Assembly: GCA_033391075.1 (NCBI GenBank)
Contig: JAWPMV010000001.1
Span: forward strand, 310,001-374,000
DNA length: 64,000 nt
Direction of reading: 5' to 3'
Source of the DNA: Bacteroidia bacterium
GTDB taxonomy: Bacteria; Bacteroidota; Bacteroidia; J057
Shown in pieces: positions 6,907 to 21,223 of this stretch (position 1 is the first letter of the stretch; every line of letters starts with the position of its first letter). A program made the translations under genes and the position numbers. The notes beneath the pieces were generated by a model that worked only from the letters and a program-made list of their open reading frames with translations, made no database searches and was not told where the DNA came from.

Positions 6907-7584
6907 TTAGTCCTGGCTGCAGCTATCTTTTAAGGCTTGCAACTCAGTTCTGTCATTTACCGTTTGAGTTGTACCATCTTCCAGTTCCACAGTGATCGGG
7001 AATACCAGGCTAGGACGATCTGTTGAACCTGGATTGTCTGCTTTCCACTGACGGATTTCCTGTTTGAGTTCCTGACGATCAGCTACGCTTACTACCGTAG
7101 AATCTGGAAATTCTATGCTTACCGGGAAAGTCAGACTGAAGCAACGATCTGCGCGGTGATTGCGACGATGGCGTCTTCCAATGTAATCTCTCACACAACT
7201 CAGCAAGAGTCTTCTCAATTCGGACTGTTCAGTGATGGTTATCATTGTACCATCATCCTTAATTACATCAAATGGGAAGTTCAAAGAGGGACGTTCGAGT
7301 GAATCGGTGGGATTATTCTGGATATAATTTCTTAATTCTGTCCTCAATTCATCATAGTCATTTACCGTAATAGTATTGCCTCCAAGTGTGATATCAATTG
7401 GAAATACAAATTCAAAGCAACCAAAACGTCCACATGCGCTAGCATCATGTAGGGCAGTAACTCCATCAGTAACATAGTTTTCAACTACAGACTCATTAAG
7501 TACTACGTCTTCTTCACAAGCTACAAAAAGACCCATCGCAGCGATGAGGATAAGCAAATAGGTTTTTTGAAGGAGATTAGTCAT
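6907..7584 (-). CDS. Lipoprotein with four internal repeats, unknown function
   Basis: I do not recognise a named domain. The 225-residue product has a signal sequence with a lipobox ending at Cys23 (LFVAC). Four related units of about 33 residues follow (56-90, 99-130, 148-181, 191-222). Each has the pattern FPxxxxxxDGTxxTVxxxxELxxL. They alternate as A-B-A-B: each A unit begins with Cys (56, 148) and each B unit ends with Cys (130, 222), exactly 74 residues apart in both pairs, which suggests two disulfide-closed modules. Similar repeat lipoproteins occur widely in Bacteroidota without known function. It is divergent from the ECF sigma operon and could be one of its targets (inference). Confidence 0.8.
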   Translation of the reverse strand: MTNLLQKTYLLILIAAMGLFVACEEDVVLNESVVENYVTDGVTALHDASACGRFGCFEFVFPIDITLGGNTITVNDYDELRTELRNYIQNNPTDSLERPSLNFPFDVIKDDGTMITITEQSELRRLLLSCVRDYIGRRHRRNHRADRCFSLTFPVSIEFPDSTVVSVADRQELKQEIRQWKADNPGSTDRPSLVFPITVELEDGTTQTVNDRTELQALKDSCSQD

Positions 7585-7729
7585 AATTTTTTTTGTTATT
7601 TGTTGTCAGTAAAGAATTACACAGAGATAAGGAAGCGGGCATCGAATTTGTACTCACTTTTCTTAAAAAAAAAATCAAATTAATTTTTAAGGCATTGATT
7701 TTCAATTAGATAAATTTTGAAAAAAATCA

Positions 7730-8296
7730 ATGAAGGATCAGGAGCTTTGGAGTAAACTGAAGGCAGGAGACAAAAAATCCCTGCGGGAGATCTATGATCT
7801 TCACCTGGAGTATCTACTCCAGTATGCCCTTCGTTTTTCTCGAAATGAAGACCTGATCCAGGATTGTATCCATGATCTCTTTGTAGAAATATGGAAGCGT
7901 CGGGAAAGCCTGGGCGAGACCAATGCCATCAGGCCTTATTTGATTGTGTCACTAAGGCGAAAGTTGATCCGAGAATTGCAGAAAGGACAGAAGAATGAAG
8001 AAATCTCTGAAGTAGGGGATTTTGGAATGGAAGAAGGGGTAGAGTCTCTCCTTATTAAAGGAGAAGAATCTGCTTTGCAGGCAGAAAAACTTAAAAATGC
8101 CATGCAACAACTCTCAAGCAGGCAACGCGAAGCTATATTTCTCAAGTTTTATGAAGAGATGGACTATCAGGAAGTCGCAGCAGCCATGGACATCAATTAT
8201 CAGTCTGTGCGTAATCTGATCTTCAATGGGATCAAAAAACTGCGGGATATCCTTGTGGCAATCCTGGCCCTAACAATTTTTTTTCAAAAACTATGA
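7730..8296 (+). CDS. ECF-type RNA polymerase sigma factor (FecI-like)
   Basis: The 188-residue product has the two ECF regions only. Region 2 is about residues 20-85 (LQYALRFSRNEDLIQDCIHD, then LFVEIWKRR). Region 4 is about 125-175 (LSSRQREAIFLKFYEEMDYQ, with the helix-turn-helix EVAAAMDINYQSVRNLIFNG). It directs RNA polymerase to a specific regulon and would be held inactive by the FecR protein encoded two genes downstream. It is the first gene of a four-gene operon; its stop overlaps the next start (ATGA at 8293-8296), indicating translational coupling. Confidence 0.93.
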   Translation: MKDQELWSKLKAGDKKSLREIYDLHLEYLLQYALRFSRNEDLIQDCIHDLFVEIWKRRESLGETNAIRPYLIVSLRRKLIRELQKGQKNEEISEVGDFGMEEGVESLLIKGEESALQAEKLKNAMQQLSSRQREAIFLKFYEEMDYQEVAAAMDINYQSVRNLIFNGIKKLRDILVAILALTIFFQKL

Positions 8297-8793
8297 GTAC
8301 AAAATCAAAACCCGCAGCTTATATGATAAAAAGATCTATGAATCTTCGCTCATATTTGCTTATCTGCCTGCTGAGTATCCCCTTGTTTTATGCCTGTGAG
8401 CCTGATGAGGTCCTGGTGATAGACAGTAGACTGAAGCCCTACTTTGATCGATTTGAAGAGGAAGCAAGTATGAGAGGATTGAGCCTGGATTTTTCAGATT
8501 TAGAAGGGAAAATTGAGGACCTGGATGGAGTAGGAGGGCAGTGCGTGAGAAATTCAACTTTACCAGATGAGGTACTGATTGATTTTGTGTTTTGGACCCA
8601 GGCGAGTGAGTTGGAAAAAGAATTTATAGTTTTCCATGAACTTGGCCATTGCGTATTGGATCGAAGTCATCTGGACACAAAGAATGCAGATGGGACATGT
8701 GTAAGTATTATGCACAGCGGAGTGAGTGGATGTAGATTTATATATGAAGATATTAAGCGAGAAGAATATTTAGAAGAATTGTTTTATCGATAG
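8293..8793 (+). CDS. Putative zinc metallopeptidase lipoprotein
   Basis: The 166-residue product has a signal sequence and lipobox (PLFYAC, Cys35). It carries a clear HELGH motif (His115, Glu116, His119) with another histidine at 126 (HELGHCVLDRSH) and a downstream SIMHSG (Met140) that may form a Met-turn. This resembles metzincins but with one extra residue before the third histidine. Cys84, Cys120, Cys136 and Cys147 may form disulfides. The family is small and common in Bacteroidota; substrates are unknown to me. The start overlaps the sigma stop by 4 nt; later in-frame ATGs at 8323 and 8338 would give a more usual signal peptide. Its place between sigma and anti-sigma genes suggests, but does not prove, a role in the signalling cascade. 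Confidence 0.8.
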   Translation: MSTKSKPAAYMIKRSMNLRSYLLICLLSIPLFYACEPDEVLVIDSRLKPYFDRFEEEASMRGLSLDFSDLEGKIEDLDGVGGQCVRNSTLPDEVLIDFVFWTQASELEKEFIVFHELGHCVLDRSHLDTKNADGTCVSIMHSGVSGCRFIYEDIKREEYLEELFYR

Positions 8794-8814
8794 ATCCCAG
8801 AATGATCTTTGCCT

Positions 8815-9801
8815 ATGAAAAATGAATACCTATCCTATGATGCGCTCCAGTTGGCAGCTGAAAACTCCTTCATCCAGTGGGTGAAAGAGGAAGCTGGCCC
8901 GCATGCGTCTTCCTGGGAGGTCTGGCTGAAAGATCATCCGCAGATGGAGGGCATTGTGAAAGAAGCTAAAGAGGTTGTCGAAGAAAATCTGAAACTCCTT
9001 GCACCTATTCCTCATAAAATCGACGCTCAAAACTTGTGGGATCGTATTGATAGCAGTACAGGAACAGAGTTGCAGCTAAAGGAGGCAAAAACGAGACGAC
9101 TAAGACCTTTATATATAGGGATCGCCATAGCAGCAGCTATTGCTATCATCCTGCTCATCTTCCCAAACCTCCCTTCAGAAACTCAATTGAGGAGTCCCAA
9201 TGGAGAACATTTAGCCTTTGTCCTGCCTGATTCTTCTGCTATTGAATTAAATGCAGCCAGTTCACTTCGCTTCTCGGAGAAAGGATTTAGCAAAAAGAGA
9301 GAAGTATACCTGGATGGAGAAGCATTCTTTGAAGTGGAAAAAGGTGAAAATTTTCTGGTAAAGACAGAACTGGGTACTGTTCGTGTATTGGGGACCAGCT
9401 TTAATGTATACGAAAGGGAAGGAAACTTTGAAGTACAGTGTCTAACAGGCAAGGTGGAAGTAAGTAATCAGGATCAATCTGAGAAAGTAATCCTGACGCC
9501 CGGAGAAGTTGTGAGCCTTAACCCCCAGGGTAAGTTGGCCAAACAGGAATCTGAGATCCCAACTTTTGCAAGCTGGCGGGACTATAAATTCACCTACGAA
9601 AAGACTCCTTTAATTGAGGTACTGGAAGAAATCAAACGTCAGTTCAATGTTGAAATAGATTTCCAGGGAGTAGATTTGAATGAGGAGTATAGTGGGGAAT
9701 TTGAAGGGAGAGATTTAGAGAATGTTCTGGAAGATGTTTTGTGGCCGCTAAATCTGGCTTTCGATATTAAAGCTAAGAGGGTCATCATAAGCGAAGAATA
9801 A
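8815..9801 (+). CDS. FecR family anti-sigma factor
   Basis: This is an inner-membrane anti-sigma factor. The first 98 residues are cytoplasmic and would bind the ECF sigma factor. One transmembrane helix follows at about 98-116 (LYIGIAIAAAIAIILLIF). Then come a periplasmic FecR domain (about 125-225, including SSLRFSEKGFSKKREVYLDG and GTVRVLGTSFNVYER) and a C-terminal DUF4974 domain (about 255-328), which contacts the receptor STN domain. The order sigma, (lipoprotein), FecR, STN-receptor is the standard trans-envelope signalling arrangement of Bacteroidota. An ATG two codons upstream (8809) is the alternative start. Confidence 0.93.
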   Translation: MKNEYLSYDALQLAAENSFIQWVKEEAGPHASSWEVWLKDHPQMEGIVKEAKEVVEENLKLLAPIPHKIDAQNLWDRIDSSTGTELQLKEAKTRRLRPLYIGIAIAAAIAIILLIFPNLPSETQLRSPNGEHLAFVLPDSSAIELNAASSLRFSEKGFSKKREVYLDGEAFFEVEKGENFLVKTELGTVRVLGTSFNVYEREGNFEVQCLTGKVEVSNQDQSEKVILTPGEVVSLNPQGKLAKQESEIPTFASWRDYKFTYEKTPLIEVLEEIKRQFNVEIDFQGVDLNEEYSGEFEGRDLENVLEDVLWPLNLAFDIKAKRVIISEE

Positions 9802-9832
9802 TACACAGCAGAAGGGATCTTATTAGCAAGCT

Positions 9833-12562
9833 ATGCTTTATTCGCATAAACCTGTAAATGCTCCTTTAGCATCACTTATATATGAAGTGGTGTTGAATGG
9901 CTTGTGGTCGAAGCTAAGAAGCCTCGGCCTTGCTTTGCTTTTATTTTCCTCTCTGCCCATTTTTGCGCAAAGTCCCTATCAGATAAATCTTTCCGAAGAA
10001 AAATCCCTGCCTGAGATTCTCGGTGGACTTGAGTCCCAATTTGATATGCAATTCGCGTATTCTTATACGGACTTCAAGGAAATCTCCGTACAAGCTGGTG
10101 AATACAAAGGGAATACCCGGGAAAGCTTTCTGTTCAAATTGCTGGAGCCTAATGAGATTATTTTTAAGAGATCCGGGAAGCAAAAATTCCTCTTAAGAGT
10201 TCATGATAGGCAAAAGCGAGTTTATGAGGATTGGGATATGTATTTGGAAGGCTCTATTTATGATAGGGAAAATCGGAGTCCCCTTTCTCAGGTAGCCATT
10301 TATATTGAAAACTCCGGGATTGGTACCCTCAGTGATGATAGCGGGAATTTTCAGTTGAGGATACCCCGTAGATACCAGGATGCTACCCTGAACTTCAGGC
10401 TTTTTGCCTATAAACAATTGAAAATAAAAGTGGGGAGTGCTTCTCTACAATCCATTTTTCAACTAAAAGCCGAACCTCTCAGTGTAGATCCCATTAAGAT
10501 CCAGGCGAATAATGCAGACCATCCGGACCTGGATGCTCTGGCTGGACTTCCGCCCAATTTTGAACGGATTGCCCAGGCCTCCAATCTGGCAGGACCGGAT
10601 GTGGTTAGGACCCTTCAGCTTTTGCCGGGCATAAATGCGTTTGATGATCTTAATTCAGAACTAAAAATAAGGGGAAGTGGAGGGGATGAAACCCTTATCG
10701 TATTGGATGGGATTCCTATTTATCGCTCTGACCACTATTTTGGAATATTCTCATCCATCAGTTCTGATTATCTGGATAAGGTAGAATTGTACAAAAATAT
10801 TTTGCCTTTAGAATACGGAGGAAAAACAGGAGGAATGATCCTTATGGAAGCCCCGGATAAACTGGAAGAATTTTCTGCTAAAGTTGATCTCAATCTGTTG
10901 AGCAGCTCTGGGAACCTGCGAGTTCCTCTGGGAAAAGGAAGTAGCCTGATTCTGAATGGACGTACAACCCTGGGCAATGCAGCTGATACGGATTTTTTTG
11001 AATCTGTTGGAAGAGAACTCAATCTGAATGAATTGGCCAATATTGATTTCACTCGTTTGAATGTGGTCATTACTGATCCGGATTTCAGGTTTTACGATGC
11101 CAATGCCAAGCTCAATCTGGCTTTGGGAAAGAACTCAGGATTGCGGCTCAATTTTTTTCGAAGTAATGATAAGCTGATTAACTCCTATCAATTGAACTTC
11201 AAAAGTCGCAACAATGATTTTGCAGTTCTCAATCAGGAAACCTTTACCGATACTCAAATCTGGAGCAGCACAGGAACTTCCCTGCAATTCTATTCCCTGC
11301 TTTCTCCCAATCTCAGGCTGGAAGCAAATGTATTTAGTAGCGATTATCAGGAAAATACTTCCATAAAGACTACCCTCCTTCGCATGGCTCGTTTCAATAC
11401 GCGTCAATTTGAGCGAATCAATGAAAGAAACAATTCTATCTCAGATTTCGGAGGAGGAGTAAACCTCAAAAGATATTTTGACCAGGACATCCTGGAATTG
11501 GGGCTAAACGGAGTACAGCATAGTACAGAAGTGGATTTTGAGCAAAGTGCCCAATCAGTATTGGCGGGAGATGCCAAAAGCTCTGAGGTAAATATTTATG
11601 CAAATTATCGCATCAATCGAGGGCCATGGCTTCTGGATTTGGGACATCGGGTAAATTATTATGGTCTGAATGGGGAATTTTATTTTTCTCCCAGATTACA
11701 AGCTACTTATAAGCCGCGGGAAGATATAAAGTTGAAGGCAGCATGGGGAATCAGTAATCAATTTGTGCGGGAAGTCCAGCACGAAAATCAATGGGGAAGA
11801 GTGGTCAATTATTTTATCGCAGCAGATGAGGTGAATTATCCGGTTGGGAGCTCAGAAAATTATATGCTGGGCTTTACCCATGCTAAAGGGCCCTGGACCC
11901 TGGATGTAGAAGGCTTTTACCGCAATCTGGATGGAGTTGTGGAGCATGCCCTGGTAAGTCCAGGTTTAGACAGCCTCAATTCTGCCTTGATCAGCAAAGA
12001 TTATAGACTGTATGTGGGAGAAGGAGTTTCTAAAGGAATCGATTTCTTTCTGGGCTATGACAGCAAATTCTATACTTCCTGGATATCATATACCCTGAGC
12101 AAGACCACCCATCAGTTTGAGGATGTATTTGGTGGAGCGGCATTTGCTTCCCAGGATGATAGGAGACATCAACTCAAATGGGTAAATTCTCTCAAACTGG
12201 GGCGATTTACCCTTTCAGGCAATTATATCTATAGTAGTGGAAGGGCTTACCTGGATATCTCATCTCTCAACAGAATTGCCAGTCGCAACGAACTGGACCC
12301 CTCTTCCCTCATCAAACGCCTGCCTTTTTACGGACGACTTGATCTCGGCCTGAATTATGGATTTACCTTTGGAAGAAGTAGTGGATCAATAGGTATTTCT
12401 GTATTTAATCTGACTAATCGGGAAAATGTTGATTACCTGCAATATGTGTTTGCAGTGCCCGTGAGTCAGAATGGAAATGATTTTCGTTCAGAAGTAATTG
12501 GCAATCAATCTGGTCTGCTTGACCGAACCCTTAATCTGAATCTTCGCCTGGATTTACGCTAA
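9833..12562 (+). CDS. TonB-dependent receptor with N-terminal STN signalling domain
   Basis: This 909-residue outer-membrane receptor has a long signal peptide (cleavage near PIFAQ, 42-46). An STN domain (about 50-125) follows, which transmits ligand occupancy to FecR. Next are a carboxypeptidase-regulatory-like domain (about 138-215), a plug domain (about 225-345; LPGINAFDDLNSELKIRGSG) and a beta-barrel to the C-terminus (ending LNLRLDLR). It is the last gene of the sigma operon, 31 bp after fecR. There is no SusD directly coupled to it, so it may be a sensor-transporter by itself. The ligand is unknown; the shape is more like CarboxypepD-plug receptors than classic siderophore FecA. Confidence 0.92.
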   Translation: MLYSHKPVNAPLASLIYEVVLNGLWSKLRSLGLALLLFSSLPIFAQSPYQINLSEEKSLPEILGGLESQFDMQFAYSYTDFKEISVQAGEYKGNTRESFLFKLLEPNEIIFKRSGKQKFLLRVHDRQKRVYEDWDMYLEGSIYDRENRSPLSQVAIYIENSGIGTLSDDSGNFQLRIPRRYQDATLNFRLFAYKQLKIKVGSASLQSIFQLKAEPLSVDPIKIQANNADHPDLDALAGLPPNFERIAQASNLAGPDVVRTLQLLPGINAFDDLNSELKIRGSGGDETLIVLDGIPIYRSDHYFGIFSSISSDYLDKVELYKNILPLEYGGKTGGMILMEAPDKLEEFSAKVDLNLLSSSGNLRVPLGKGSSLILNGRTTLGNAADTDFFESVGRELNLNELANIDFTRLNVVITDPDFRFYDANAKLNLALGKNSGLRLNFFRSNDKLINSYQLNFKSRNNDFAVLNQETFTDTQIWSSTGTSLQFYSLLSPNLRLEANVFSSDYQENTSIKTTLLRMARFNTRQFERINERNNSISDFGGGVNLKRYFDQDILELGLNGVQHSTEVDFEQSAQSVLAGDAKSSEVNIYANYRINRGPWLLDLGHRVNYYGLNGEFYFSPRLQATYKPREDIKLKAAWGISNQFVREVQHENQWGRVVNYFIAADEVNYPVGSSENYMLGFTHAKGPWTLDVEGFYRNLDGVVEHALVSPGLDSLNSALISKDYRLYVGEGVSKGIDFFLGYDSKFYTSWISYTLSKTTHQFEDVFGGAAFASQDDRRHQLKWVNSLKLGRFTLSGNYIYSSGRAYLDISSLNRIASRNELDPSSLIKRLPFYGRLDLGLNYGFTFGRSSGSIGISVFNLTNRENVDYLQYVFAVPVSQNGNDFRSEVIGNQSGLLDRTLNLNLRLDLR

Positions 12563-12900: not shown

Positions 12901-15900
12901 ATGAGAAAATCATACCCTTCCATGCTAAGTAGAGCCTTTTTCCTGGGTCTCTGTTTTTGCATGATGTCGATGCAGGTTATCGCTCAGAATGTATCCGGTA
13001 CAGTTACCGATAGAGACTCTGGCGAGCCGCTTGTCGGGGCGACTGTGGTTGTGAAAGGTACTACTACCGGTGTCCTCACAAATGAACAAGGGAGATACGG
13101 CATTGCTGCAAAAGCTGGCGACGTCCTCTTGTTTTCTTTCGCTACCTATGCTACTCAGGAGATTACCGTTGGTGATCAATCTACAGTCAACGTGGCTCTT
13201 GTTACAGACCTCTCCCTGGATGAAGTGGTTGTAACAGGATATTCCAGCCAGCGGAAACGGGACATTACCGGTGCCGTATCTGTAGTAGATACCGAAGAAT
13301 TGAACGAAGTTGCTGCTTCGAGCTTTATCCAGAAATTGGAAGGTAGAGCCGCTGGTTTGACTACTTCTACTTCTGGTGCTCCAGGTGCCGGAACAGTAGT
13401 TCGTATTCGTGGTATCGGATCTTTCCAAAACAATGACCCGCTTTACGTAATTGATGGAGTTCCTGTAAAGGACAACTTCAACAACCAGCTTAACCCTAGC
13501 GACATTGAGTCTATCCAGGTATTGAAGGATGCATCTGCAGCTTCTATCTATGGTACTCGTGCCAACAATGGGGTAATCATTGTTACCACCAAAAAAGGTA
13601 AAGCAGGTAAGACCAAAGTTTCCTATGACAGCTATGTAGGGATTCAAAATCCTGTAGGCCAATACGATCTGATCGTAAATCCTGCGGATTACTCTGAAAT
13701 CGTATGGCGCTCCTTCGAAAATGCTGGATTGGAGATTCCTTCCGGAGTACCTTATTCTGCAGGTCGTGGAGTTATTCCTACCTACTATTATGACTGGAAT
13801 GCCAGTGGTTATGGAGGTACAGGATCCGTGGATGAGAGTTCTTATGCTTTCCCCAACCAATTGATCATGGCTTCTAATCAAAGTGGAACCGACTGGTGGG
13901 ACGAAACCTTTGACCCTGCTTTGATGACTGAGCACACAGTGGGTGTATCTGGAGGAACAGATAACTCAAGTTTCTACATCTCAGCTGGTTACCTCAAGCA
14001 GGATGGAACCATGATCTACACTGACTTTGAAAGAGCTTCGCTGCGTGCAAACTCGACCTTCAAAGCAGGTAGATTTACCTTTGGTGAAAACTTTGCCGTA
14101 TCTCGCGCAAACAGTGTGGGACAGCAGGGAGGAAACCAGAGTGAGCAGAATACCATGACCAACCTTCTGAAGTCTCAATCAATAATTCCGGTTTATGATG
14201 TATCTGGTGAAAACTTTGCCGGTGGTAAGTCAAACGGAATGAGTAATGGTATTACGCCTGTTGCAAGACAGTTCCGTAACAAAGACAATAGAGGAGTATT
14301 CTACAAAGCTTTGGGTAATGCCTTTGTATCCGTTGATATCATAGATGGACTTACTGCAAGATCCAGCCTGGGTATTGACTTCTTCAACAATTTCAATGGA
14401 GGTTTCAGCTTCCCAAGTTGGGAGGAATCAGAGCCAAGTACTGTAAACGGTTGGAGTGAGAACTTCTCTACCGGTTTCAACTGGACCTGGTCCAACACCC
14501 TGAGATACGACAATACTTTTAATGATGTACACAATCTACAAGTATTGGCGGGTTATGAGTCCATCAGAAGAACCTTCCGTCAAATAGGTGGTGGATTGAA
14601 CAACTACTTTACCGATGGTAGAGATGGCTGGTATTTGAATACAGGTCTTGCTGACCCTGAAACTCGTCAGGTAAATAGCTTCGGTGGATTCAGCACCATT
14701 GCTTCTATCTTTGCAAAAGCGGACTATTCATTTGATGACAAGTATATCGTTTCTGCAACTGTACGTAGAGATGGTTCTTCAAACTTCGGTACAGAGAAAT
14801 ACGGTACCTTCCCTGCATTCAGTTTGGGATGGCGTCTGAGTAATGAATCCTTCATGCAGGATGTTGCCTGGATTGAGGATTTGAAACTGAGATTTGGATG
14901 GGGTAAAACAGGTAAGGATGAAATTCCTTCCGGTAATGCCTTTGACCGTTTCGGTGGTGGACCTGCAAACTCTTTCTATGACATCACAGGTTCTGGTTCT
15001 ATTGCTACGGGATATGCCCTGGTAAACAGAGGAAACTCAGGTACCAAGTGGGAAGAAAATATCTCTACCAACATTGGTCTTGATGCATCTTTATTTGCTG
15101 GAAAAATCAATGTTGTATTGGACTTGTACCAAAGAGATGTACAGGATCTTCTGTTTAACCCTGCTAACCCAGGAACAGCTGGATTCGCATCACCTGCCTT
15201 TATCAATGTAGGGGATATGCAAAACAGAGGTATCGACCTTTCGATTACCTATAATGACGCCTATGCAAATGGATTCGCATTTGATGCGACACTTGCATTG
15301 GGAGCTTTCGAGAACGAGATTATCTCTATTGATGGCAACTCTGAGTCTTTCTTCTCTAACAATGGTGGTCGTATCGGTAATACCCAGATCAACCAGTTGA
15401 ACTTCCCAATCGCTTCTTTCTACGGATTTACCGCTGACGGTATTTTCCAAAGCCAGGAAGAAGTAAATGCACATGCACAGCAAGACGGTGCTGCTCCGGG
15501 ACGTCTGAGATTCAAAGACCTCAATGGCGACAACATAATCAACGATGATGACCTCGGCGTAATTGGCTCACCCTGGGCTGACTTCACCGCTGGTTTGAAC
15601 CTCGGTATGAGCTACAAAAGCTGGGATGCTTCTATCTTCTTCTTCGCTTCCGTAGGAAACGAAATTATGAACTACAACAAGCTTTTCGAAGTATTCCGTT
15701 TCTTTAACACAAACGTAAGAAAAGAAACACTTGAGAGATCATGGCATCCAACGCTTAATCCTACGGGTGATTTCCCAATTTTGGATGAAAATGATACATT
15801 TAGTGAAAGACCAAGTAGCTTCTACGTAGAGGACGGTTCTTACCTGAGACTCAGAAACTTCCAGATTGGTTATACTCTTCCAAGAATCACTGGAATTGAT

Positions 15901-16077
15901 AAGCTGAGAATTTACGTTCAGGCTCAAAATGCTTTCACAATTACTAATTATAGTGGAATTGATCCTGCTTTGTCTAACTTTGGTGTAAGGGGTAACCCTG
16001 ACCAGTCTGCTGGACAAGACTTTGGAAACTATCCGGGTTCTAAAATATTTATGGTAGGGGTAAACCTTGGATTCTAA
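12901..16077 (+). CDS. SusC/RagA family TonB-linked outer membrane protein
   Basis: This is the outer-membrane transporter of a SusCD pair. The 1058 residues begin with a signal peptide (to about 29, VIAQ). A carboxypeptidase-like regulatory domain follows (about 30-108, VSGTVTDRDSGEPLVGATVV). Then come the SusC signature region DEVVVTGYSSQRKRDITGAV, the plug (IRGIGSFQNNDPLYVIDGVP; IESIQVLKDASAASIYGTRA) and a large barrel ending MVGVNLGF. There is no STN domain, so it is not itself a FecR-type signaller. susD follows 30 bp downstream. No glycoside hydrolase is nearby, so the substrate is not indicated and could be peptide or glycan. Confidence 0.96.
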   Translation: MRKSYPSMLSRAFFLGLCFCMMSMQVIAQNVSGTVTDRDSGEPLVGATVVVKGTTTGVLTNEQGRYGIAAKAGDVLLFSFATYATQEITVGDQSTVNVALVTDLSLDEVVVTGYSSQRKRDITGAVSVVDTEELNEVAASSFIQKLEGRAAGLTTSTSGAPGAGTVVRIRGIGSFQNNDPLYVIDGVPVKDNFNNQLNPSDIESIQVLKDASAASIYGTRANNGVIIVTTKKGKAGKTKVSYDSYVGIQNPVGQYDLIVNPADYSEIVWRSFENAGLEIPSGVPYSAGRGVIPTYYYDWNASGYGGTGSVDESSYAFPNQLIMASNQSGTDWWDETFDPALMTEHTVGVSGGTDNSSFYISAGYLKQDGTMIYTDFERASLRANSTFKAGRFTFGENFAVSRANSVGQQGGNQSEQNTMTNLLKSQSIIPVYDVSGENFAGGKSNGMSNGITPVARQFRNKDNRGVFYKALGNAFVSVDIIDGLTARSSLGIDFFNNFNGGFSFPSWEESEPSTVNGWSENFSTGFNWTWSNTLRYDNTFNDVHNLQVLAGYESIRRTFRQIGGGLNNYFTDGRDGWYLNTGLADPETRQVNSFGGFSTIASIFAKADYSFDDKYIVSATVRRDGSSNFGTEKYGTFPAFSLGWRLSNESFMQDVAWIEDLKLRFGWGKTGKDEIPSGNAFDRFGGGPANSFYDITGSGSIATGYALVNRGNSGTKWEENISTNIGLDASLFAGKINVVLDLYQRDVQDLLFNPANPGTAGFASPAFINVGDMQNRGIDLSITYNDAYANGFAFDATLALGAFENEIISIDGNSESFFSNNGGRIGNTQINQLNFPIASFYGFTADGIFQSQEEVNAHAQQDGAAPGRLRFKDLNGDNIINDDDLGVIGSPWADFTAGLNLGMSYKSWDASIFFFASVGNEIMNYNKLFEVFRFFNTNVRKETLERSWHPTLNPTGDFPILDENDTFSERPSSFYVEDGSYLRLRNFQIGYTLPRITGIDKLRIYVQAQNAFTITNYSGIDPALSNFGVRGNPDQSAGQDFGNYPGSKIFMVGVNLGF

Positions 16078-16107
16078 TAAGTGGAATTAAAAACGAATAT
16101 CATTACT

Positions 16108-17796
16108 ATGAAAAATAGATTATTAAAAATATTTGCAGCTGTATGTGTGCTGGGGATCTTTGCTGCTTGTGCAGATGAATTCCTGGATATTCCCGCACAG
16201 GGAGCACTTGATCAGGGGCTACTTCAGAATCAAGAAGGAGTAGAGGCTTCACTGGTCTCAGCTTACTCTATGCTTGATGGATGGGCGAATCAGTGGGGAC
16301 AAGGTGCTCCATGGCCAACGGCCGGTTCTAACTGGATCTGGGGATCCGTTGCTTCTGATGATGCTTACAAAGGTTCAGAACCTGGTGACCAGGGAGAAAC
16401 TTCTCAGATTGAACTCTTTCAATGGACGCCGGGTAATCCCTACTTTCAGGCCAAGTTTGTGGCTTTGTATGAGGGTATAGCTCGTGCGAATGCAACTAAA
16501 AAACTTCTGGTATCTGCGGCTGATGGAATTAGTGCTGAGGACCAGGCAAGAATTGATGGAGAGATTCGCTTCTTGCGTGCTCACTTCCATTTTGATGGAG
16601 TGAAATTGTGGGGAAACATTCCTTACTATGATGAAACGGACGATAACTTCCGTAAGCCTAATGATGCGAGTATCATTCCTCAAATTACAGCTGATCTGGA
16701 AGCTGCCGCAGGTTTATTGCCTGCAACTACTTCCGATAAAGGACGTGCTACCAAAGGTGCTGCTCAGGCTTATCTGGGTAAAGTGCATTTGTACCAGCAA
16801 AACTGGGCAGAAGCCAAGTCTTTGTTTGATCAGGTGGTAAATAGTGGAAACTATGCCCTGAATCCTTGTTTCAAGGATATGTTTACGACTGCTAATGAGA
16901 ATGCTTCTGAAATGATCTTCTCTATTCAGGCAACTGTAAATGACGGAACTGGTGGGGGAGATAATGGTAACTTCGCAGATCGTTTGAACTTCCCTCATGG
17001 AGGTAGCCCATTTGGTTGCTGTGGATTCCACCAGCCTTCTCAAAACCTCGTAAATGCTCATAAAGTAGATGCCAATGGTTTGCCATTGTTTGATACCTTC
17101 AATGATGCTGATGTAGACGTAGCAAGTCCCGTAGATCCACGCCTTGACTGGACCATTGGACGTGATGATGTTCCTTTCCTGACATGGGGTGTTCATGAAC
17201 CTACATGGATTCGTTCTCGTGCATGGGCCGGACCTTATAGCGCCAAAAAATTCATCTATGAGCCTGGACAGGAAAGTAGTGTAGGTTGGTCTAACCTTCA
17301 GCTGAATCCTGTAAACATGCCGATTATCCGTTATGCTGACGTTCTATTGATGCTTGCAGAAGCGGAAGTTGAGCTTGGTAATCTGGAAAGAGCGCGTGAA
17401 CTGGTTAACATGATTCGTACGCGTGCCGCTAACTGTGCCCAAGGCGCTGATGGTGGTTCTACTACAATCGATGATGCTGGTATTACCTGGGCTACCTATG
17501 CTGTAGGTACTTATGATAATGCATGGACCGATCAGGCTGCTGCTCGTACAGCGGTTAGAATGGAAAGAAGAATTGAGTTGGCCCTTGAGGGACACAGATT
17601 CTTTGACCTGAGAAGATGGGGAATCGCCCAAGAGGTCATGAATGCCTATATGGACGTTGAGCAAACAAAGAGAACCTATATTACGGCTGCTACTCGTTAT
17701 GAGGCCAGACATAATTTGTTCCCATTGCCTAGCGTACAAATTGAATTGAGTAAAGTTGACGGAACTGCCCAGCTGATTCAAAATTCAGGTTGGTAG
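16108..17796 (+). CDS. SusD/RagB family nutrient-binding outer membrane lipoprotein
   Basis: This is the surface lid of the SusCD transporter. I chose ATG 16108 because it yields a proper lipoprotein signal (MKNRLLKIFAAVCVLGIFAA, then Cys21); the longer open frame begins at a GTG at 16081. Typical features are FLDIPAQGALDQ after the lipid cysteine, tetratricopeptide-like helices (AQAYLGKVHLYQQNWAEAKS), the RYADVLLMLAEAEVELGN region and the C-terminal ERRIELALEGHRFFDLRRWG motif. The length (562) is normal. It shares an operon with susC and ends in a strong terminator. Confidence 0.95.
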   Translation: MKNRLLKIFAAVCVLGIFAACADEFLDIPAQGALDQGLLQNQEGVEASLVSAYSMLDGWANQWGQGAPWPTAGSNWIWGSVASDDAYKGSEPGDQGETSQIELFQWTPGNPYFQAKFVALYEGIARANATKKLLVSAADGISAEDQARIDGEIRFLRAHFHFDGVKLWGNIPYYDETDDNFRKPNDASIIPQITADLEAAAGLLPATTSDKGRATKGAAQAYLGKVHLYQQNWAEAKSLFDQVVNSGNYALNPCFKDMFTTANENASEMIFSIQATVNDGTGGGDNGNFADRLNFPHGGSPFGCCGFHQPSQNLVNAHKVDANGLPLFDTFNDADVDVASPVDPRLDWTIGRDDVPFLTWGVHEPTWIRSRAWAGPYSAKKFIYEPGQESSVGWSNLQLNPVNMPIIRYADVLLMLAEAEVELGNLERARELVNMIRTRAANCAQGADGGSTTIDDAGITWATYAVGTYDNAWTDQAAARTAVRMERRIELALEGHRFFDLRRWGIAQEVMNAYMDVEQTKRTYITAATRYEARHNLFPLPSVQIELSKVDGTAQLIQNSGW

Positions 17797-17817
17797 AATT
17801 ATCCTAACTTAACAAAT

Positions 17818-17850
17818 AAAAAGAAGAGGCAGCTTTTGCCTCTTCTTTTT
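17818..17850 (+). terminator. Rho-independent terminator after susD
   Basis: Perfect 13-bp arms (17818-17830 and 17838-17850; core AGAAGAGGC/GCCTCTTCT) with a 7-nt loop and a T-tract, directly after susD. It separates the susCD unit from the CRTAC1 genes, perhaps with partial read-through. Confidence 0.85.
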
Positions 17851-17905
17851 ATTTTTCCAATCCCTTGGTAATTTTATAGAAGGCCCCGGCTGAATAAAAA
17901 GATAT

Positions 17906-20900
17906 ATGCGCTACTTTTCCTTACTCTTACTCCCCATATTTCTTTGCCTAATTCCAGCTTGTGATTTGGCGACAGATGAATTGGAAGTAAAACAGCGATT
18001 CAGCCTGTTCTCCAAACTGGATAGCACGGACACAGGTCTGAATTTTATCAATAAAGTTGAGGATCAGAAAGATTTCAATGTCCTGACCTACCGCAATTTT
18101 TACAATGGAGGTGGAGTCGCCATTGGAGATATCAATAATGACGGTTTGCCGGATGTATATTTTACGGCCAATATGGCTCCCAATAGACTCTACCTAAATA
18201 AAGGGAACTGGGAGTTTGAAGATATTAGTAGCAAGGCAGGAATAAGGGGAGAGAAAGCCTGGAGTACAGGGGTAAGTATGGTAGATATCAATGCCGATGG
18301 TTTTTTGGATATTTATGTCTGTAATTCGGGGGATATACAGGGCGATAATAAGGAAAACGAATTATTCATCAATCAGGGGGATATGACCTTTGTGGAAAAG
18401 GCCGCAGACTACGGCCTCAATGACAAAGGTTTTTCTACACATGCCTCCTTCTTTGACTATGACCTCGATGGTGATCTAGATTGTTATATCCTTAACAATA
18501 GCTTCAAAGACCCCAACCGCATAGACCTATACAAAAAAGCAAGAGAAGAAACAGACGAAGAAGGGGGAGATAAACTCTTCAGAAATGATGGGGACAGCTT
18601 TACCGATGTAACCCTGGAAGCTGGGATTTATAATAGCCAAATAGGATTTGGTCTGGGAGTTTCTGTGAGTGATCTTAATGGTGATATGTTCCCGGATATT
18701 TATGTGAGCAATGATTTTTGGGAAAGGGATTACCTCTACATCAATCAGGGAAATGGGAAGTTTTCAGAAGAATTGCCCCAACGCATAAGTCAAACCTCCG
18801 TCTCTTCTATGGGAGCCGATATAGCCGACATCAATAATGATGGCTCTCCAGAGGTATTTAGTACGGATATGCTGGCGGGAGATAATTACCGACTAAAAGC
18901 CATGACGGTTTTTGATCCTTATCACCTCGAAGACATAAAATACCGCGCCAATTACCATTACCAAATCCTCCAAAACTGCCTTCAACTCAATGATGGCAAT
19001 GCCAACTTCCAGGAAATTGGTTTTATGGCAGGAATTTCTGCTACGGATTGGAGTTGGGGTGCTTTAATGTTTGACTTCGAAAATGATGGATGGAAAGACA
19101 TTTTTGTCGCGAATGGAATTTACCATGACATCATGTACATGGATTTTACGGCATTCATTTCCGATCAGGCCAATGTCAAGAAAATTGTTGAAGAATCGGG
19201 AAGAGCAGATTTTAGGGATTTTCTCCCATACCTGCCGTCGAATCCTTTATCCAATTTCGCTTTTGTCAATAATCGAAACCTGCAGTTTAGCAGCGAAGCG
19301 GATGCACTTGGCCTGGGAGAAGCCTCCTTTAGCAATGGAGCCGCATATGGCGATCTGGATCTCGACGGAGATTTAGACCTGATCGTCAACAATGTGAATA
19401 TGCCCGCTTTCATCTACCGCAACAATAGCGATAGCCTCAAAAAGAACCATTTCCTCAAAATCAATTTTAAAGGACGGAAAGAAAATCCTTTAGGCATAGG
19501 AGCAAAAGTAAAAATCACCCATGCCGGTGAAAAACAGGAACTTCAGCACTACACCGCAAGAGGTTTTGAAAGTTCTGTTGAGCCAGGTCTTTTGTTTGGC
19601 TTGGGAAAAAATACCCAAATAGATGAACTGGAAGTGATCTGGCCCGATAGGAAGAAAGAAGTCCTGAAAAATCTTAGGGCTGATCAGACCATTGTTCTAC
19701 AACACGAAAACGCTACAGAAGATTTTAGACCAGCAAACACAAAAAGTAAAAGCTTATTCACGGAGAATAGTAGTATGACATTCCCCGAAAAAGCCATGCA
19801 CACAGAAAATATATATAACGACTTCAATCATGAACTCCTGCTTCCCCATATGCTATCGACAGAAGGACCAAGACTCCTCAAAGGAGATGTAAATGGCGAT
19901 GGAAGGGAAGATGCTGTTTTATTAGGAGCTGCGGGAGATCCCGATAAACTCTATATCCAAAATACCAGCTCAAGTTTTCGTTTCAGTCCCCAGGAAGCCT
20001 TTGAAATGGATAAGGGCGTAGAGAGTACAGGAGGGGCTCTGGCAGATATGGATCAGGATGGGGATCTCGACCTTTTATTAGGTGCGGGAGGAAATGAATA
20101 CACAAAGGGAATTCAAAATTTTCTTCTGCGCTATTATGAAAATGATGGTAAGGGGAACTTTAGCAAACAAAAAGAAAAGACTCCACCAGCGGGAGGAAAT
20201 ACTTCTTGTATAGAAGTTGCAGATTTTGATGCTGATGGAGATATGGATGTGTTTATAGGAGGAAGGCTTGTTCCCGGAAATTATGGGCTCAAACCTCGGA
20301 GTTTTCTCTTGAGGAAAGATCCCACTGGTTGGACAGATATTACGACAGAATTTCTGGGAGGACTGGGTATGATCACGGATGCAGTTTGGGTGGATCAGGA
20401 TCAGGACAATGATTTGGATTTGGTGGTGGTTGGTGAATGGTTGGGCGTGACTTTGCTGAAAAATGAAGGAGGGAAATTGCAACCTCCAGCGATGATCCCC
20501 AATAGCCTGGGCTGGTGGAATTGTATCGAAAAAGCAGACCTCGACGGAGATGGTGATGAGGATTTTGTATTGGGGAATTGGGGACTGAATAGCAAGTTTC
20601 AGGCAAGCCCGGATCGCCCCCTGAGCATGTTTGTCAAAGACTTTGACCAAAATGGTAAAAGCGAATTTGTCATCAACTGGTTTCCCCCGCTGGATGATAA
20701 AGCCTATCCTTTTGCAACAAAAGGAGATATTACCACTCAACTACCGCATCTCAAAAGAAGCAACCTCAAATTTGAAGAATACGCTCATAAAACCTTTTCT
20801 GATCTGTTTTCAGAAGAAGAAGTACGTGGCGGCCTGGCTTATAAAGCAGATTATCTACAATCGGCTATTCTTTGGAACGAAGCCAATGGAACACCAAAAT

Positions 20901-21223
20901 TGCAAGCCTTGCCGATAGAAGCTCAGGTTTCTCCCGTTTTTGGAATCGCCATAGCAGATATGGATGGCGATGAACATTTGGACATAGTCCTGGGAGGAAA
21001 TTTTTATGCCCTGAAGCCAGAAGTGGGCAGGCAGGATGCAAACTTTGGCGTATTTCTAAAAGGAAATAGCAGCAAGGATTTTCAATACCTGAGCCCAGAG
21101 GAGAGTGGGATATATTTGAGAGGAGAGGTGAGAGATATGAAGGTATTTAAGGGAAAGGATAATAAACCCTTACTCATGGTAGCCCGCAACAATGATGCGG
21201 TCCTTACTTTTAAAAGAAACTAA
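17906..21223 (+). CDS. CRTAC1-like FG-GAP/VCBS repeat lipoprotein with ASPIC/UnbV domain
   Basis: A 1105-residue surface lipoprotein (lipobox LIPAC, Cys19). It contains many FG-GAP/VCBS repeats with calcium-binding DxDxDG loops, for example DINNDGLPDVYF, DINADGFLDIYV, DYDLDGDLDCYI, DFENDGWKDIFV and DLDLDGDLDLIV, forming one or two beta-propellers. An ASPIC/UnbV segment lies in the middle (about 525-605: GIGAKVKITHAGEKQELQHY through FGLGKNTQIDELEVIWPDRK). A second set of repeats fills the C-terminal half. Such proteins regularly accompany SusCD pairs in Bacteroidota and are often misnamed RNA-binding proteins. The exact role is unknown; ligand binding or adhesion at the surface is likely. It is followed after 10 bp by a paralogue. 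Confidence 0.9.
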   Translation: MRYFSLLLLPIFLCLIPACDLATDELEVKQRFSLFSKLDSTDTGLNFINKVEDQKDFNVLTYRNFYNGGGVAIGDINNDGLPDVYFTANMAPNRLYLNKGNWEFEDISSKAGIRGEKAWSTGVSMVDINADGFLDIYVCNSGDIQGDNKENELFINQGDMTFVEKAADYGLNDKGFSTHASFFDYDLDGDLDCYILNNSFKDPNRIDLYKKAREETDEEGGDKLFRNDGDSFTDVTLEAGIYNSQIGFGLGVSVSDLNGDMFPDIYVSNDFWERDYLYINQGNGKFSEELPQRISQTSVSSMGADIADINNDGSPEVFSTDMLAGDNYRLKAMTVFDPYHLEDIKYRANYHYQILQNCLQLNDGNANFQEIGFMAGISATDWSWGALMFDFENDGWKDIFVANGIYHDIMYMDFTAFISDQANVKKIVEESGRADFRDFLPYLPSNPLSNFAFVNNRNLQFSSEADALGLGEASFSNGAAYGDLDLDGDLDLIVNNVNMPAFIYRNNSDSLKKNHFLKINFKGRKENPLGIGAKVKITHAGEKQELQHYTARGFESSVEPGLLFGLGKNTQIDELEVIWPDRKKEVLKNLRADQTIVLQHENATEDFRPANTKSKSLFTENSSMTFPEKAMHTENIYNDFNHELLLPHMLSTEGPRLLKGDVNGDGREDAVLLGAAGDPDKLYIQNTSSSFRFSPQEAFEMDKGVESTGGALADMDQDGDLDLLLGAGGNEYTKGIQNFLLRYYENDGKGNFSKQKEKTPPAGGNTSCIEVADFDADGDMDVFIGGRLVPGNYGLKPRSFLLRKDPTGWTDITTEFLGGLGMITDAVWVDQDQDNDLDLVVVGEWLGVTLLKNEGGKLQPPAMIPNSLGWWNCIEKADLDGDGDEDFVLGNWGLNSKFQASPDRPLSMFVKDFDQNGKSEFVINWFPPLDDKAYPFATKGDITTQLPHLKRSNLKFEEYAHKTFSDLFSEEEVRGGLAYKADYLQSAILWNEANGTPKLQALPIEAQVSPVFGIAIADMDGDEHLDIVLGGNFYALKPEVGRQDANFGVFLKGNSSKDFQYLSPEESGIYLRGEVRDMKVFKGKDNKPLLMVARNNDAVLTFKRN

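Follow-up and report, generated by a model that had tools for sequence, protein, structure and literature searches.

Surface signalling through TonB-dependent receptors is known from FecI/FecR/FecA and from Pseudomonas FoxI/FoxR/FoxA. For Escherichia coli FecR, one report (PMC8144685) describes self-cleavage at a Gly-Thr bond, trimming by an unknown periplasmic protease and then a cut by RseP; a review (PMC9249621) names Prc for the periplasmic step, while the signalling domain of FoxA is described as being cleaved itself (PMC11637429). Herein, we analyse a locus of this kind from a Bacteroidia bacterium (assembly GCA_033391075.1, contig JAWPMV010000001.1, positions 310,001 to 374,000; this whole stretch of 64,000 nucleotides (nt) is referred to as the window). 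It holds genes for a FecI-like extracytoplasmic function (ECF) sigma factor, a small lipoprotein with an HExxH motif (the HExxH protein), a FecR anti-sigma factor and a TonB-dependent receptor, as well as a divergently oriented lipoprotein gene, DIV (Table 1). The preliminary description of this DNA had correctly recognised the order sigma, HExxH lipoprotein, fecR and receptor, which Pfam domains, the lipobox and the HELGH motif bear out, but it missed both DIV and a DNA element common to the two sides of the locus.

Fec and Fox are the closest known counterparts of the window system, which is similar to them in having an ECF sigma factor, a FecR with the Gly-Thr motif, an STN-like receptor and a receptor gene inside the predicted sigma regulon. 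The receptor matches the Pfam STN model weakly (0.045, one of eight members); since its N-terminus can be aligned with the STN-like domains at the C-terminal end of FecR proteins, it has the signalling domain required of a TonB transducer. Unlike Fec and Fox, the window system has a gene for a zincin lipoprotein inserted between those for sigma and FecR, a divergently encoded lipoprotein of two domains and a promoter-like element nested at the sigma 3' end. Its fecR lies inside the predicted sigma-driven unit, and in some related genomes a haloperoxidase-like lipoprotein would probably be a third target. From these comparisons, we consider it probable that the locus encodes a FecI/FecR/TonB-transducer module with a dedicated promoter, in which the sigma factor drives a small set of lipoproteins and the HExxH protein is a co-regulated, probably surface-exposed output. 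A ligand at the receptor would relieve the hold of FecR on the sigma factor, presumably in the generic way, by Gly-Thr self-cleavage followed by Prc/RseP-type proteolysis. The sigma factor would then transcribe two units, DIV and HExxH-fecR-receptor, from GAGTACAAAA-N~13-CTTAT, and the HExxH protein may serve as a regulated effector, working with the co-regulated lipoproteins on an extracellular substrate.

The arrangement of the window is not an isolated one. A profile search finds the HExxH family in 133 of the 248 genomes of one related family (f49), and all of the best 150 matches listed there were examined, with 1.5-2.5 kilobases (kb) fetched on each side. The HExxH gene lies between an ECF sigma gene and fecR in 36 of these 150 loci (35 found by script and L158, which the script did not recognise and which has the same order), which answers the question of recurrence posed by the preliminary description; this share is biased upward because operon members supplied half of the profile and only the best matches were considered. 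DIV adjoins sigma in 26 of the 35 scripted operons, being divergent in 25 and co-oriented in one, and the DIV family as a whole is found in 156/248 genomes. A separate scan of genome contigs gave 14 relatives of the HExxH protein, six of them between sigma and FecR, including one fused sigma-HExxH frame. Four further loci (L199, L211, L216 and L240) have the HExxH gene directly before fecR with no sigma gene called next door. It must be added that the gene caller was crude and missed the HExxH gene in L081 and L158, that some of the 150 HExxH and 30 DIV loci overlap one another, and that no more than 14 HExxH and 11 DIV candidates per genome were scored initially; wherever we say that no operon was found in a genome, this is not proof of absence.

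The preliminary description would have been refuted by the family occurring mostly in unrelated contexts, and on this point the outcome is mixed. By count it does, as in 96 of the 150 loci the flanks fetched contain no gene called as sigma, FecR, receptor or DIV, yet the operon members are not scattered over the tree. On a tree of 152 rows, built from few columns and with many forks unresolved, 11 changes suffice for the label that marks proximity to sigma or FecR, whereas shuffled labels need 38.9, and 92 of the 107 unlabelled rows fall into one cluster holding a single labelled row. The genome of the window itself has 11 FecR genes and six members of the HExxH family, of which one shows a degenerate zinc motif, and the window locus alone joins both; the other ten FecR loci lack an adjacent HExxH protease. 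Overall, the presence of a predicted metalloprotease gene within a FecI/FecR-type operon is recurrent and conserved.

Several loci depart from the usual layout. In L016 (5464-6456, on the contig of L090, G617:C59), sigma and HExxH form one uninterrupted 330-residue frame, with DIV co-oriented upstream and carrying the sole copy of the promoter element found there; this may reflect a genuine fusion of sigma and lipoprotein or an error in the assembly of a metagenome-assembled genome. Two tandem HExxH genes stand between sigma and FecR in L219 (G628:C141). The genome of the window harbours a second system (L069, C1:1770000-1786000) composed of sigma, FecR, receptor and DIV genes, all in one direction, without an HExxH gene and without the GAGTAC element.

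The DNA element just mentioned, GAGTACAAAA-N~13-CTTAT, is conserved at the sigma 3' end and has a promoter-like spacing. Of the 39 operon-type loci, 36 have GAGTACA close to the sigma stop; it was not found there in L090, L091 (GATTACA instead) and L252. A second, CTTATA-like box was taken as the best match among offsets 21 to 27. Counted from where GAGTAC starts, its offset is 23 nt in 26 of the 34 alignable copies and 25-27 nt in the other eight. In the window, the sigma stop (8294-8296) overlaps the first box (8295-8300), and it is here that the preliminary description saw an ATGA overlap coupling translation of the lipoprotein to that of sigma. Such coupling does not hold across the family. 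Just four of the 36 operons, the window included, have an open frame leading from the upstream ATG of ATGAGTAC into the HExxH gene; in 18 this ATG is present but out of frame or closed, and 14 have no ATG at all. A further in-frame ATG is found 35-60 nt past GAGTAC in 31 of the 36 operons, and in the window this ATG, at 8338, leads into a 19-residue lipoprotein signal peptide. Judging from the aligned junctions, the ATGA overlap is thus part of a conserved DNA element and not of a conserved start codon.

The same element stands upstream of DIV. A matrix trained solely on the sigma-HExxH junctions was scored on the 200 nt upstream of other genes, with 310 genes as controls. Among the DIV upstream regions, 37/49 exceed the 1% control level and 33/49 exceed the best of the 310 controls, while sigma upstream regions pass in 1/45 cases and those of FecR in 0/42; the window DIV reaches 21.3 against 12.0 for the best control. 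The DIV loci compared were the 30 best-ranked ones and not a random sample, lower-ranked DIV genes of the same genomes being left out. Most informative are the DIV genes that lie apart from the operon. When their genome holds the operon (G501, G663, G595, G640, G688, G461) or the sigma-less unit (G528), the element accompanies DIV in 7/7 cases (L125, L127, L128, L130, L133, L134, L135). In six genomes in which no operon was found and sigma itself was not searched (G504, G597, G483, G554, G535, G470), it was found at DIV in 0/6 (L116, L117, L123, L126, L129, L136); nor was it found at the DIV genes of L069 and of L121 (G604, with an HExxH-FecR pair and no sigma called). Of the HExxH-FecR-receptor units without adjacent sigma, L216 has the full element and L240 a weaker copy. 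We infer that the element is the promoter of this sigma factor, and, with the protease gene lying downstream of it, the HExxH protein would be made in response to sigma.

Stand-alone HExxH genes were considered as further members of the regulon and rejected: the full pattern occurs at 8/120, five of which were reassigned, being operon genes seen from DIV-centred loci (L110, L111, L131) or fecR-linked genes (L216, L240), so that three are left (L082, L114, L166). Single instances of the element, which could be due to chance, lie ~80 nt before a CotH-like gene in the genome of the window (C1:2386875, L284) and ~80 nt before a gene for a di-haem peroxidase of the CCP_MauG type (G663:C42, L273).

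A third gene type emerged from a match of the pattern before a vanadium-haloperoxidase/PAP2-type lipoprotein gene in two genomes (G480, G528). Close copies of this gene number ten (the query and nine others, 58-63% identity) in 30 genomes holding the operon or the HExxH-FecR-receptor unit. Six of the ten have an element of their own, five of them with a score of at least 20; three lie directly behind a same-direction DIV gene (G601, G664, G478), the element of which scores at least 23; and in one case the contig begins at the gene, leaving no upstream sequence. Thus, the element stands before the haloperoxidase-like gene, or before the gene directly in front, in 9/9 testable close orthologues. 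Distant homologues with fetched loci were taken both from the operon genomes and from another 30 that gave no operon; the element was detected in 0/47 of those testable, and no match in these other 30 genomes exceeds 41% identity. Overall, the haloperoxidase-like lipoprotein is a likely third sigma target in 10/30 of the related genomes searched.

Vanadium haloperoxidases are characterised by the motifs KX6RP, PSGH and SRX5HX3D. KX6RP and SRx5Hx3D are kept in all ten close copies, which were themselves selected with a P[ST][GA]H[ST] pattern, and the best solved relative is the vanadium-dependent haloperoxidase 4cit (E 7.5e-26). The lipoprotein resembles the vanadium-dependent haloperoxidases (PDB 4cit/4usz) in sequence match and in these two motifs and differs from them by a lipobox and a low-complexity N-terminus; its activity is a predicted one. 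An apparent DIV domain in these proteins was dismissed, as it proved to be the signal-peptide region only.

Turning to the HExxH protein, residues H115, E116, H119, H126 and S138-x-M140 are invariant in 20/20 sequences, and their equivalents are kept in a wider set of 50/50; the lipobox cysteine is Cys35 in the 166-amino-acid numbering from the first in-frame ATG (8293). The predicted structure has a mean confidence (predicted local distance difference test, pLDDT) of 92.7 and aligns with matrix metalloproteinase (MMP) 11 at Z 8.9 (root-mean-square deviation 3.2 over 111 residues) and with snapalysin at Z 8.5, a best Z of 7-8 being common in comparisons of this kind. A Foldseek search with the model gave nothing at E<=0.001, selecase being the best match (2.9e-3), and the window protein has no Pfam family above cut-off. 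The zinc motif of metzincins is HExxHxxGxxH. The window sequence, HELGHCVLDRSH, does not conform to it, its third His lying one residue further and the Gly being absent, and the His positions are invariant in the aligned family; given this longer HExxHx6H spacing without Gly, we do not file the protein as a metzincin. In sum, it is similar to metzincins and other small zincins (MMP catalytic domains, snapalysin, selecase) in HExxH, downstream His and Ser-x-Met and perhaps in predicted fold, and it differs from metzincins in the spacing of its motif and in matching no Pfam family above cut-off. We regard it as a zincin metalloprotease-like lipoprotein with putative proteolytic activity. As for family members outside the operons, L028, in the genome of the window, carries a stand-alone paralogue (10778-11914) with a degenerate zinc motif (FEQLGR), outside the 50-member set and with an intact member in the same 18-kb stretch; long stand-alone members (L028, L029, L030, L032, L034, L035) have a C-terminal extension of ~200 residues; and PF06439 is matched by one of the 50 members scanned.

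Where these lipoproteins reside can be approached through the minimal surface-export signal C-X-K-(D/E)2, which follows the lipobox Cys in Capnocytophaga as described in PMC5080379. This signal occurs in 10/37 operon HExxH proteins, 12/118 stand-alone ones and 14/49 DIV proteins, against 1/35 other lipoprotein-like genes picked from the same loci by a simple rule. Such a distribution suggests that the HExxH protein may be surface-exposed.

A number of observations weigh against a regulated, surface-exposed output. The window HExxH protein reads CEPDE, without Lys, and the window DIV reads CEEDV, acidic but likewise without Lys, so for these two proteins surface exposure is suggested at most; stand-alone HExxH proteins, moreover, also show the signal, as counted above. 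The association of genes and element is not strict: L137 combines the element with DIV, sigma and FecR genes and lacks HExxH; in L114, from a genome (G491) that gave no sigma operon, a DIV-HExxH pair bears a weaker element; in L199 and L211 the HExxH gene precedes fecR, both sigma and the element being absent; and L252 is a DIV-sigma-HExxH locus lacking FecR and a clear element. A pattern search across 14 genomes gave 49 matches against 25 in the reversed control; HExxH, DIV and haloperoxidase-like genes account for 19 of the 49, and the 30 that are left do not rise above background. In the genome of the window, two patterns gave six matches against eight and five against four in the reversed control, which implies that the predicted regulon there is essentially the window locus with its two local copies. 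One of the haloperoxidase-like copies (L294) scores 11.5, above the 1% level and below the best control of 12.0. Finally, the genome of the window has no close haloperoxidase copy (best match 32%), and hence this target does not apply to it.

The preliminary description had proposed that the lipoprotein could cut FecR or the receptor. In this reading, the HExxH protein would be a dedicated signalling protease on the periplasmic side of the outer membrane, either trimming FecR, i.e., carrying out the unknown site-1 step, or cutting the signalling domain of the receptor, and its sigma-driven synthesis would form a feedback loop. We do not favour this idea and consider it rather unlikely, although several facts speak for it. 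The zincin residues are invariant, the gene lies directly before fecR in 36/150 loci, and it keeps that place in the four loci with no sigma called next door; since it stays with fecR and receptor there, direct cutting of FecR retains some room, though it finds no specific support. The periplasmic trimming of E. coli FecR that precedes RseP (PMC8144685) and the cleavage of the FoxA signalling domain (PMC11637429) provide steps at which such an enzyme might act. However, a protease made from the predicted sigma promoter would be unneeded for first activation, and FecR loci without HExxH are the rule in the genome of the window, where one of 11 has it. The Gly-Thr self-cleavage-type motif is kept in 37 of the 38 operon FecR proteins, and two M50 (RseP-type) proteases are present in the genome of the window. 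Some members of the family have N-termini resembling the export signal, and the protease would be co-regulated with other lipoproteins, both of which point away from FecR as well.

DIV offers another candidate substrate. Its two domains, both predicted to be alpha/beta, are connected through a short His/Arg-rich linker, which is basic in 42/42 proteins examined and often rich in His (80 of 747 linker residues against 45 of 8858 elsewhere); the linker also contains the sole stretch of the DIV model with pLDDT <50. Among Pfam families, none fits more than 2/13 DIV members; the best sequence-profile match in PDB is an adiponectin entry (0.00029, no stretch passing alone); and the model gave nothing in Foldseek at E<=0.001 and a best Z of 3.8 in VIA-align. 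These missing structural matches are no evidence of a new fold. It is tempting to suppose that the HExxH protein cuts the exposed basic linker and thereby releases or activates one domain, substrate and enzyme being placed under one sigma factor. The company that DIV keeps with 26/35 operons, the shared promoter element and the basic linker with its low pLDDT would agree with this. We nevertheless find it improbable, for the basic linker is also kept in L116 and L126, where no operon was found, and in L137, a DIV-sigma-FecR locus without the protease, and so was not selected for a cut by the HExxH protein alone.

Still less credit is due to the notion that the HExxH lipoprotein binds metal without being catalytic and either delivers this metal to the receptor or senses it there. 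TonB-dependent receptors often import metal chelates, and the partner DIV is His-rich in its linker; against this, the catalytic Glu is invariant in 50/50 sequences and would be needless for a mere binding site, which makes this role very improbable. That the gene came into the operon as a passenger and plays no part in it, as might be thought from most relatives examined being stand-alone genes, is hardly credible at all, given that it recurs in many f49 genera and in the window's own family, has its own conserved promoter-like element and belongs to a group clustered on the tree.

Returning to the HExxH protein as a regulated output, we may go one step further, if only tentatively. The locus possibly represents an undescribed class of systems, in which a TonB-transducer/ECF sigma pathway deploys a set of surface enzymes via GAGTAC/CTTAT (a metzincin-like protease with its motif shifted by one residue, the two-domain lipoprotein with the basic linker and, in many genomes, the vanadium haloperoxidase-like lipoprotein) and which serves inducible oxidation or halogenation together with proteolysis and not nutrient uptake alone. 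We found no account of a metalloprotease between ECF sigma and FecR, or of a GAGTAC/CTTAT promoter, in the open-licence literature, and what we found there says little about which promoters the FecI-type sigma factors of Bacteroidota recognise and what output they have. The element provides a sharp and transferable promoter-like sequence that predicts targets across genera, including genes away from the operon; an apparent translational coupling has been turned into a testable promoter, and three lipoproteins can be named as its likely output. If true, a surface protease and a haloperoxidase-like enzyme would be tied to one envelope sensor.

Table 1. Features of the sigma-HExxH-FecR-receptor locus and of its divergent neighbour, in positions of the window.
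Feature	Position	Strand	Basis
ECF sigma factor, FecI-like, 188 amino acids, hydrophobic C-terminal tail	7730-8296	+	Pfam Sigma70_r2 2.4e-08, Sigma70_r4_2 4e-14
Zincin metalloprotease-like lipoprotein (HExxH)	8338-8793 (likely start 8338, open from 8293)	+	Lipobox, HELGH; start choice inferred
HExxH active-site stretch, H115-E-L-G-H119...H126 (HExxHx6H)	8635-8670	+	Alignment; conserved SxM 138-140
FecR anti-sigma factor, one apparent membrane segment, LGTSFNV self-cleavage-type motif, C-terminal STN-like FecR_C	8815-9801	+	Pfam FecR 7.9e-19, FecR_C 3e-08
TonB-dependent receptor with N-terminal STN-like signalling, CarboxypepD_reg-like and plug domains	9833-12562	+	Plug 9.4e-09
STN-like signalling domain of the receptor	9965-10198	+	hhalign to FecR C-terminal domains, probability 97.0, E 9.2e-11
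DIV, divergent lipoprotein, 225 amino acids, lipobox Cys23, predicted regulon member	6907-7584	-	Reading frame, lipobox, model
Predicted sigma-dependent promoter of DIV: GAGTAC 7655-7650, CTTATC 7631-7626	7626-7655	-	Matrix score 21.3
Predicted sigma-dependent promoter of HExxH-fecR-receptor: GAGTAC 8295-8300, CTTATA 8318-8323	8295-8323	+	Matrix, element alignment

Two minor points concern the sigma factor and the surroundings of the locus. A hydrophobic stretch after region 4 ends 34 of the 44 sigma proteins listed, its window equivalent being 8250-8296. We considered this tail as a membrane anchor special to the HExxH operon and dropped the idea, as other FecR-linked sigma factors of the same genome (L058, L061, L064, L066) have it too. 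Downstream of the receptor, the stretch 12901-21223 of the window starts with a SusC-like receptor gene (12901-16077), followed by two genes that by eye encode a SusD-like partner and a large lipoprotein.

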